Source of the DNA: Paraburkholderia sp. NMBU_R16 | Lineage (GTDB): Bacteria; Pseudomonadota; Gammaproteobacteria; Burkholderiales; Burkholderiaceae | NCBI RefSeq assembly: GCF_013282575.1 | Contig: NZ_JAAAYE010000002.1 | Location: 62,001-126,000, forward strand | Length of the DNA: 64,000 bases | Reading direction: 5' to 3' | Shown: one piece after another, positions 36,577 through 46,918 of the stretch | Layout: every line of letters begins with the position of its first letter | Numbering within the stretch: position 1 is the first letter of the stretch | Position numbers and translations under genes: made by a program | The notes under the pieces: model-generated | Told to the model about the DNA's origin: nothing | Database searches by the model: none | Seen by the model: only the letters and a program-made list of their open reading frames with translations

Positions 36577-38454
<1,878 letters not shown>

Positions 38455-38471
<17 letters not shown>

Positions 38472-38529
38472 ATAGAGGCCGCGCTAGTCGGCCGGAGGTA
38501 ATTCGGAGGGTGTTCGAAATGGAACGCAT
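38455..38529 (-). CDS. Putative leucine-rich leader peptide of leuA
   Basis: 24 residues, MRSISNTLRITSGRLARPLS then LRLA and a TAA stop. Five are leucine, and four of these in the last ten codons use CTA (38487-38485, 38475-38473, 38469-38467, 38463-38461), a codon that is very rare in the GC-rich genes around it. It lies 222 bases before leuA on the same strand. There is no Shine-Dalgarno sequence; the promoter places the transcript start at or next to the ATG. A GTG three codons upstream is in frame. I read it as a sensor of charged tRNA-Leu. Confidence 0.65.
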
Positions 38530-38536
38530 GAAGCGC

Positions 38537-38566
38537 ACTGTATGTCAGCGACGGCGACGCTGTCAA
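38537..38566 (-). promoter_or_regulatory. Promoter of the leuA leader
   Basis: TTGACA (38566-38561), an 18-base spacer and TACAGT (38542-38537). The -35 lies in the loop of a perfect 8-bp inverted repeat, ACGGCGAC/GTCGCCGT (38551-38558 and 38569-38576), which may end ybiB or act as an operator. The expected start is near 38530-38529. Confidence 0.6.
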
Positions 38567-38580
38567 CCGTCGCCGTTCGG

Positions 38581-39549
38581 CTAAACCTGCCGCACCACCC
38601 GCACGATCGTCTCCACCTGGCGCGCGAGCGTGGGCGGCACGGGCTGCCGGCCGTCCAGCACGGCCTGGGTCCAGGCTGCCGTCGTATCCGCATCGCGCGA
38701 TTCCGGCAGAGCGGCCGGTTGCGCTTCGGACGAACTGCGCTCGGCCGCGACGAGCGTTTCGGCCACGCCGTCATGCAGCCAGTCGATCTGGACCTGACGG
38801 CGCGTGTCGGCCACAGCCTCGCCCTCGGTGCCGCGTGCGAGCAACGCGCCGCCAACGGCTGCTGCGGGATGCGCGACGAAAAGTTCGGCAAGGCTCTCGC
38901 GATACTCCGGATGCGTATAGTTGACGAGCCGCAGGCCCGGGGACGCAAACGGCTGCAGGATTTTCACGAGCGTATGCGTCGAATTGCGCACGCCCATGAT
39001 CCGGCGCAGTGCCAAAAGGCGCGCGAGCTTCGGCGCCAACACCTCGATCGGCGCGAAGGCGAGCGCGCGGTTGGCCAACTGCGCCTCGATCTCCGGATGC
39101 GAGTTGGCCGCTGCGATGCCCAGCCTCTCGAAAATCTCCGCGCTCGTCACCCGCCCGGCATCCGTGCTCACGCCGTGCACGAGTGTCGGCACGCCCTCGC
39201 GCGCGAGCAGCAGCGCGAGCAGCGGCACCAGGTTGGGCTGCTTGCGCGCGCCGTTGTAGCTCGGAATGGACACGGGCCGGCTTTCGCCTCCCGGCACGCG
39301 CAGTAATGCGAACGACGCTTGCGCGGCCTCGAGCATGGCCGCGAGTTCCGCAGCCGTCTCACCTTTGAGCCGGTAGGCGAGCAAAACCGCGCCTAGCTCG
39401 ATATCCGAGACGCGGCCATCGAGCATCGCGCCATACAACGCGTGCGTGTCTTCCGGCGAGAGAGCGCGGGCTCCGTTCGGACCGCGTCCGATTTCCTTGA
39501 TGAAACGGGCGCAGGCAAAGGTGCCGGGCGAGGCGGCGGATTCGGTCAT
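38581..39549 (-). CDS. ybiB: YbiB-type DNA-binding protein (anthranilate phosphoribosyltransferase-like fold)
   Basis: 322 residues from the ATG at 39549 (MTESAASPGTFACARFIKEIGRG). The fold resembles TrpD: the helical N-terminal domain (LSPEDTHALYGAMLDGRVSDIELGA in pieces) is followed by a glycine-containing region, VSIPSYNGARKQPNLVPLLALLLA, and then VPTLVHGVSTDAGR. The TrpD catalytic signature is lost. E. coli YbiB, the named relative, binds nucleic acid without TrpD activity. Despite the neighbouring leuA a role in tryptophan or leucine synthesis is not implied. It is divergent from the FAH gene. Confidence 0.82.
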   Translation of the reverse strand: MTESAASPGTFACARFIKEIGRGPNGARALSPEDTHALYGAMLDGRVSDIELGAVLLAYRLKGETAAELAAMLEAAQASFALLRVPGGESRPVSIPSYNGARKQPNLVPLLALLLAREGVPTLVHGVSTDAGRVTSAEIFERLGIAAANSHPEIEAQLANRALAFAPIEVLAPKLARLLALRRIMGVRNSTHTLVKILQPFASPGLRLVNYTHPEYRESLAELFVAHPAAAVGGALLARGTEGEAVADTRRQVQIDWLHDGVAETLVAAERSSSEAQPAALPESRDADTTAAWTQAVLDGRQPVPPTLARQVETIVRVVRQV

Positions 39550-46841: not shown

Positions 46842-46918
46842 TGGCAGGGGAGGAAGGACTCGAACCCTCGCATGCCGGAATCAAAATCCGGTGCCTTGAC
46901 CAACTTGGCGACTCCCCT
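46842..46918 (-). tRNA. tRNA-Gln (anticodon UUG), CCA encoded
   Basis: A 77-base cloverleaf on the minus strand: acceptor stem AGGGGAG/CTCCCCT, D-arm GCC/GGC, anticodon stem CCGGA/TCCGG with loop TTTTGAT (anticodon TTG, reads CAA/CAG), T-arm GAGGG/CCTTC with TTCGAGT, discriminator G and an encoded CCA. It sits between ispE and prs and is probably co-transcribed with them. Confidence 0.95.

Follow-up and report, generated by a model that had tools for sequence, protein, structure and literature searches.

A CTA-rich, probably leaderless upstream frame before leuA in Paraburkholderia sp. NMBU_R16 and its relatives as a putative leucine leader peptide

The region upstream of leuA was analysed in a 64,000-nucleotide stretch of the Paraburkholderia sp. 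NMBU_R16 genome, hereafter the window. The features are collected in Table 1. The leuA start codon at 38232 lies 222 nt downstream of a short leader ORF, which is bounded on the minus strand by an ATG at 38529-38527 and a TAA at 38457-38455 and has ybiB (38581-39549) as its upstream neighbour. The source genome also encodes a second, distant LeuA (G000:C13) with 28% identity. Five of the 24 residues of the leader are leucine, encoded by CTC at codon 8 and by CTA at codons 15, 19, 21 and 23; a preliminary description of this DNA had claimed a 24-codon frame with four CTA among its last ten codons, and this was confirmed. Scanning of positions 38150-38700 revealed one sigma-70-like promoter (TTGACA-18-TACAGT), with 0.0 expected in shuffled sequences. 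Because the -10 hexamer ends so close to the ATG, the leader ORF is probably leaderless, that is, the promoter spacing predicts a start codon at or near the 5' end of the transcript. The gap between the -10 hexamer and the ATG, judged by eye, is about 6-9 nt in relatives, and no Shine-Dalgarno sequence was seen by eye before the leader ATG in the 72 relatives' loci described below. A GTG at 38538 could start the frame three codons further upstream, but it shares bases with the end of the -10 hexamer, and the start kept among relatives is the ATG. Leaderless transcripts have been documented in Burkholderia cenocepacia (PMC4603805); the available main text of that report holds no word starting with leu.

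Table 1. Features of the leuA upstream region, in positions of the window
Feature	Position	Strand	Basis
-35 hexamer TTGACA	38561..38566	-	promoter scan; invariant in 34 aligned loci
-10 hexamer TACAGT, 18 nt after -35	38537..38542	-	promoter scan; ends 7 nt before ATG
Leader ORF, 24 codons + TAA, MRSISNTLRITSGRLARPLSLRLA	38455..38529	-	read from sequence and relatives
Helix A, inside ORF, 38493-38489 with 38483-38477	38477..38493	-	two-sided changes in 4/6 counted pairs
CTA codon 15, loop of helix A	38485..38487	-	CTA in 32/36 distinct 24-codon versions
CTA codon 19, outside helices	38473..38475	-	CTA in 36/36 distinct 24-codon versions
CTA codon 21, 5' arm of helix B	38467..38469	-	CTA in 36/36 distinct 24-codon versions
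CTA codon 23, first base in helix B	38461..38463	-	CTA in 35/36 distinct 24-codon versions
Helix B, 38471-38463 (codons 20-23) with CGTAGCG 38450-38442	38442..38471	-	two-sided changes in 2/9 pairs
Helix C, 38441-38438 with 38426-38423	38423..38441	-	two-sided changes in 3/4 pairs
Rut-like tract of 58 nt, rich in C (24) and poor in G (9)	38365..38422	-	base composition; putative function
Hairpin D, no U tract after	38329..38355	-	alignment fold, mostly-gap columns removed
CCAGCCGCC block	38272..38290	-	by eye; putative
AGAGG, Shine-Dalgarno of leuA	38239..38243	-	by eye
leuA, 2-isopropylmalate synthase, TIGR00970 / PRK03739 type	36577..38232	-	family match

The usage of CTA was determined over 464 kb, made up of the window and twenty further 20-kb pieces of its genome, using 253 long ORFs picked by rule rather than by annotation. 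CTA accounted for 240 of 10830 leucine codons (2.2%) and for 0.22% of all codons, which bears out the earlier remark that this codon is avoided in the genes around the leader and rules out genome codon usage as the source of the CTA run. When each ATG on both strands of the 464 kb was scored, the leader ORF was alone among 5658 ATG ORFs of 10-60 codons in carrying at least three CTA in its last ten codons. At least four CTA occurred in 2 of 926782 ten-codon windows in six frames, and these two overlap and lie inside the leader ORF. The clustering of CTA in the leader ORF is far beyond chance.

The conservation of the leader was analysed in related genomes. A 161-nt query matched 11 of 11 genomes of the window's genus, the source genome included, and the other ten matches start at query base 26-34, approximately at the -35 hexamer. 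Among 398 family genomes, the strong listed matches belonged to genera g1, g10, g12, g14 and g21, while the tally of 367 of 398 at E <= 10 is no count of homologues. From the strong DNA-similarity matches, 72 loci in 67 genomes were taken, Trinickia-, Burkholderia-, Caballeronia- and Paraburkholderia-like, which include five second copies of the same place (L012, L013, L015, L022 and L024), and at each locus the ORF with most CTA was chosen. The frame, the CTA run and the stop codon, on whose conservation the leader-peptide proposal had been made to depend, were kept in 72/72 loci, with 23-25 codons and 3-5 CTA; this conservation applies among homologues found by DNA similarity. These loci hold 52 distinct leader ORF sequences, 36 of them of 24 codons, and the length variants differ by whole codons. 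Single changes in codons 2-14 were synonymous in 10 and nonsynonymous in 20 cases (0.32 synonymous expected by chance), as against 10 synonymous and 5 nonsynonymous in codons 15-24 (expectation 0.40 synonymous). This contrast indicates that the start of the peptide is free and its leucine-bearing end is held, and since codons 2-14 are without amino-acid constraint, the case for translation rests on the keeping of the frame and on the 3' half.

At E <= 1.1e-18, a covariance model built from 34 of the 72 loci detected 40 of the 120 family genomes searched, all in g1, g10, g12, g14 and g21; some of these 40 had themselves supplied sequences for the model. A further 7 family genomes were reached only at E 0.003-0.1. 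The same search over 14 named genomes gave strong matches in 7 (Paraburkholderia oxyphila, P. guartelaensis, P. solitsugae, Burkholderia sp. E7m39, B. seminalis, Caballeronia sp. INDeC2 and Trinickia sp. Y13), weak matches in 2 (0.0097 and 0.040) and none in 5. At the order level, under stricter filters with which weak matches are lost, 3 of 200 genomes reached E 0.01, one of them weakly (0.0067). The exact window-type leader seems, from these searches, to be confined to Burkholderia-type genera. In genus g10, locus L102 (G271) carries a leuA with in-frame stops beside an altered leader and is apparently a decaying copy.

Three helices, A to C, were identified in an alignment of 34 sequences. 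Tested on that same alignment, which favours them, they were paired in 96.4% of cells with two-sided changes in 9 of 19 pairs; 0 of 500 shuffles reached the observed values, and slid controls dropped to 21-52% paired. The innermost pair of helix A is absent in the window. Helix B spans the stop codon, is paired in 97.1% of cells and has one mismatch in the window, and helix C can be extended inwards by two more pairs seen by eye, beyond those counted. The helices overlie the leader ORF, whose N-terminal codons lack amino-acid constraint, as would be expected if the conserved element were an RNA, such as a 5' small RNA or a protein-binding structure, with the frame and the CTA codons as by-products of pairing. 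In Sinorhizobium, the leaderless trpL also gives rise to an attenuator small RNA that has separate functions (PMC10117765). For Streptomyces coelicolor, the available text of PMC1262725 describes mutations in the leuA leader that had some effect, inconsistent with classical attenuation, and mutations of the leucine codons before leuA that reportedly had no influence on regulation, so that a leucine-rich ORF in this position does not necessarily work through its codons. Against a purely structural origin, CTA 15 and 19 lie outside the stems yet remain CTA, which rules out RNA pairing alone as their cause; the two length variants of the ORF differ by whole codons; and other leuA leaders, unlike in sequence, also bear CTA-rich frames. 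The conserved-RNA explanation is considered very improbable. Because codon 19, which no predicted stem includes, remains CTA in all 36 distinct 24-codon versions and other leuA leaders prefer CTA, decoding, beyond RNA pairing alone, seems to be under selection.

The RNA between the helices and leuA was analysed for its composition and folding. Only 0.16% of equal-length stretches in the 64 kb are as rich in C over G as the C-rich tract of Table 1. In the relatives the tract was located by its pattern and spans 17-87 nt, with medians of 41% C and 14% G. It could be placed in 70 of the 72 loci, and in 63 of these 70 it fell in the top 1% of equal-length windows for C over G; the five duplicate loci are counted in this tally and in the terminator tally below. 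Its mean unpaired fraction was 0.48-0.73 in 38 free folds. A long, C-rich, G-poor and weakly structured RNA before the gene, as looked for in Rho-dependent leaders, is accordingly present. The tract starts 32 nt past the stop codon, outside the direct reach of a stalled ribosome, and the most C-rich 60-nt windows often sit on the leader ORF itself. Masking a stalled ribosome altered the tract only a little, its unpaired fraction dropping by more than 0.05 in 13 of 38 loci and rising in 0.

No terminator-like site with a U tract was found in positions 38150-38700, and equilibrium folding, both of genus groups and of single sequences from 12 loci, gave no mutually exclusive conserved hairpins or switching partner; the classical intrinsic attenuator was rejected on these grounds. 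The single-sequence folds made along with the alignment fold that shows hairpin D, from which mostly-gap columns had been removed, are folds of trimmed sequences. Helices B and C are compatible and can coexist, and masking the ribosome at the stall or at the stop opened helix B in both cases, by construction of the mask. A weaker form of intrinsic termination was also considered. The same leucine sensor would then be read out by a GC-rich hairpin lying 50-70 nt ahead of leuA, whose tail is weak and poor in U, with pausing as an aid. A hairpin ahead of leuA was predicted in 3 of the 4 genus groups whose alignments were folded, GTTTTCGC and GTCTTCGC being examples of the tails; in 6 of the 34 loci with the second leader described below, four or five T come within a few bases after GCCAC; and a loose test placed a terminator-like site upstream in 33 of the 80 named leuA loci, the best 80 of at least 570 relatives. 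The window itself has no such site, the loose test was positive in only 11 of 72 leader loci and at scattered, inconsistent places, and no conserved alternative pairing ties the hairpin to the leader ORF, which together make intrinsic termination unlikely.

The same sensor could instead act on translation, with the stall refolding the RNA to open the leuA ribosome site or altering mRNA stability. PMC1262725 suggests a role for the leuA Shine-Dalgarno sequence in the actinobacterial LEU element, and a possible long helix between the stretch after hairpin D and the stretch before leuA had all 7 of its pairs in many loci from three genera. This helix, striking as it was in three genera, was weak in one genus group and was dropped, since the cross-genus control was nearly as good (at least six pairs in 36 of 58 own combinations against 47% across genera). 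With a ribosome masked at two CUA positions and at the stop, accessibility of the leuA Shine-Dalgarno shifted by means of only 0.012, 0.004 and 0.002 over 38 loci, rising in 5 loci and falling in 1 or 2 with the ribosome at a CUA; the corresponding means around the start codon were -0.011, -0.019 and 0.003, with 5 loci up and 10 down at the mid CUA. A Shine-Dalgarno switch was dropped, as these masked folds gave no consistent effect. In these same equilibrium folds of the 38 loci, masking of the leucine codons, which would release a pairing with the leuA Shine-Dalgarno of the LEU type, left accessibility unchanged on average. Control at the level of translation is thus judged improbable. The tiny Shine-Dalgarno effect and the lack of exclusive hairpins favour termination without a U tract, for which Rho is the best candidate, with modest confidence. 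That the leader acts on transcription is slightly favoured, whereas naming Rho as the terminator is a guess and rather doubtful.

Taken overall, the best explanation of the locus is that the leader peptide controls leuA through ribosome stalling on CUA, which is regarded as likely. Transcription would begin at or a few bases from the ATG, and the ribosome, as the promoter spacing suggests, would start on the 5' AUG without a Shine-Dalgarno sequence. With ample leucine, tRNA-Leu(UAG) would read the CUA codons, the ribosome would reach the stop codon and leave, and RNA polymerase would be halted before leuA. When leucyl-tRNA(UAG) is scarce, the ribosome would wait at CUA 15, 19, 21 or 23 and keep helix B open, the 5' arm of which is formed by codons 20-23, so that leuA would be transcribed. 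Of 48 tRNA matches in the source genome, nine long tRNA genes were examined, and one of these nine encodes tRNA-Leu(UAG). The earlier proposal that leuA is controlled by charged tRNA-Leu reading CUA gains support from the conservation of the frame and its CTA codons and from the rarity of CTA; the leucine response itself, like translation, stalling and the point where expression is cut, we infer. Leucine control of leuA by CUA stalling is, on the sequence evidence, held with good confidence.

Among known systems, the leuL attenuator of E. coli and Salmonella is similar in having a short leucine-rich ORF before leuA with CUA as control codon. The leucine codons of the Salmonella leu attenuator are adjacent. 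In the window the CUA codons are spaced, the ORF looks leaderless, leuA belongs to another subfamily of 2-isopropylmalate synthases, and no U-tract terminator or exclusive antiterminator was found. The Salmonella leu attenuator contains three CUA codons, and their substitution by CUG lowered its sensitivity (PMC1183508); E. coli leuL has 28 amino acids with 4 leucines (PMC6123439). The tract following the window's ORF also invites comparison with tna of E. coli, in which a leader peptide exerts Rho-dependent control. As there, the RNA after the leader ORF is rich in C and poor in G, with no intrinsic terminator found, but in the window the C-rich tract begins past the hairpins and not at the stop codon. 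The tna case is also named in the available text of PMC1262725. The actinobacterial LEU element treated in the same paper resembles the window in having a leader ORF with leucine codons before leuA and in missing the parts of an attenuator; it differs in its run of leucine codons, the CUA codons of the window being spaced. In Sinorhizobium, trpL/rnTrpL is likewise a leaderless small ORF used as an amino-acid leader, although it concerns tryptophan in an alphaproteobacterium and its attenuator RNA is known to be released (PMC10117765); no sequence relation is claimed. A product-codon-rich upstream ORF with conserved frame and control codons, which characterises amino-acid leader peptides in the broad sense, is what was found here, and the leader is a known kind of leader peptide in a new build.

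No Pfam or NCBIfam family matched the leader peptide and no Rfam family matched the leader region, and none reached the gathering score in 13 relatives, in accordance with the remark in the preliminary description that no such named element was known for this group. Annotation built on those libraries would therefore miss the leader. The sole gathering-score match of Rfam in the window was a tRNA gene at 46845-46918 on the minus strand; Bcj14 at 38990-39117 (E 0.69), inside ybiB, was far below the cut-off, and an NCBIfam line at E 0.17 for another leader was discarded as noise. The open literature searched yielded no report of a Burkholderia leuA leader, the survey of proteobacterial attenuators by Vitreschak et al. 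2004, in which an earlier prediction may stand, being outside that coverage. If the proposal holds, charging of tRNA-Leu(UAG) would govern leucine synthesis in Burkholderia-type bacteria via a leaderless leader peptide, in what seems to be a second case, of different build, in which CUA serves as the control codon for leucine. Theory describes CUA as the most suitable control codon in E. coli (PMC1183508), and the window leader would let this be tested outside enterics. It would also offer a system for asking how leaderless initiation couples to termination without a U tract, and may connect proteobacterial leuA leaders with the unsolved actinobacterial LEU element.

The presence of comparable leaders was analysed in the named leuA loci, which are the best 80 of at least 570 confirmed relatives. 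A leaderless leucine-rich ORF, defined by a promoter 4-10 nt before the ATG and three leucines in the last 15 residues, was found upstream in 35 of these best 80, as compared with 0/80 antisense sequences, 0/80 locus 3' ends (downstream) and 0/820 tiles of the window's genome. The 35 positive loci come from beta- and gammaproteobacteria and one unclassified proteobacterium. Within the same best 80 of at least 570, 78 upstream regions contained an ATG ORF, and 44 of these 78 had one with five or more leucines in its last 15 residues; the controls gave 1 of 70 (antisense) and 0 of 62 (downstream). CTA made up 120 of 343 leucine codons in those 44 ORFs, as compared with 40 of 3188 leucine codons when the leuA bodies of the full set of 80 were counted; this statistic was drawn only from the ranking by leucine alone, because the other rankings favoured CTA. 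The preference for CTA was strong in Burkholderiales and weak or absent elsewhere in these best 80, and three Pseudomonas-type leader peptides had 0 CTA. The Pseudomonas-type loci L196, L201 and L206 share a leaderless leucine-rich ORF of the form LIL.RQHA.L.LVS.RLRG. Several LeuA2 genes of the same family lack the window-type leader and are preceded by different leaders rich in CTA, such as MQATASLSLRVVRLLPQRLSLRLLPALA, MSAYKTSHLHASLLALSSGLGLLSRI and MYRAQTTLSLLLARSTGLGLLLRASN, while among the loci listed some family leuA loci, such as L098, L105 and L106, showed no leader. Burkholderia seminalis (L166) and Paraburkholderia solitsugae (L171) each have the window-type leader together with a LeuA2 of 59% identity, which lies behind a different, CTA-bearing leader (L207 and L211, respectively).

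A second leader motif was revealed in 34 of 107 upstream regions, for example L147:1338-1404 and L084:492-558, where it follows a leucine-rich frame ending mostly in LPIGCRA; it is absent from the window's own upstream region (L077). Its stem, GGYUGCCGRRC:GYYCGGCAGCC, was tested on 32 of the 34 regions, L174 (no end found) and L082 (repeat) being left out, and was 96.8% paired with two-sided changes in 5 of 11 pairs, values reached by 0-1 of 500 shuffles. In 29 of 32 regions, pairing is possible between the loop GUGGC and a GCCAC further downstream, a word that occurs in 7.7% of shuffled tails; this test is partly circular, as the segment ends were chosen near GCCAC. The second leader of the relatives probably carries a pseudoknot. 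In this, unlike the window, it would resemble the LEU element, for which a pseudoknot is reported in PMC1262725. No Rfam match at gathering score was obtained for the second-leader loci L078, L082, L084 and L085. Strict patterns placed both leaders in 9 of the 80 loci (best 80 of at least 570). Paraburkholderia- and Caballeronia-like loci often retain a second frame, MHVAW... or MHAAS..., and in L037, L038, L050, L061 and other g10 and g21 loci this has a Shine-Dalgarno GAGGG and a stop that often falls just inside leuA, in another frame. This position of the stop suggests that the second frame may be translationally coupled to leuA. The CCAGCCGCC block in the window is possibly a relic of the second, pseudoknot-bearing leader. 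These results would be consistent with the existence, across beta- and gammaproteobacteria, of an extensive and so far unrecognised group of leuA leaders, consisting of leaderless leucine sensors, CUA-biased in Burkholderiales and without an intrinsic terminator, some of them stacked with a LEU-like second leader as two serial checkpoints of which the window's lineage keeps the first only; this broader picture is tentative and somewhat less than even in our estimation.

Leucine-rich frames were also observed before further leuA genes. L103 and L104, from 2-Mb genomes, have a leucine-rich leader MNFS..LTGLL.. before the other type of leuA, and in L103 a hairpin followed by a T run can be seen by eye, as in a classical attenuator. 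The cyanobacterial leuA loci L172 and L198 have upstream ORFs ending in LLLGLGLLLRLGRN or LLLGLLLRLGRN, resembling GLGLLLRLARI in Methylobacillus.
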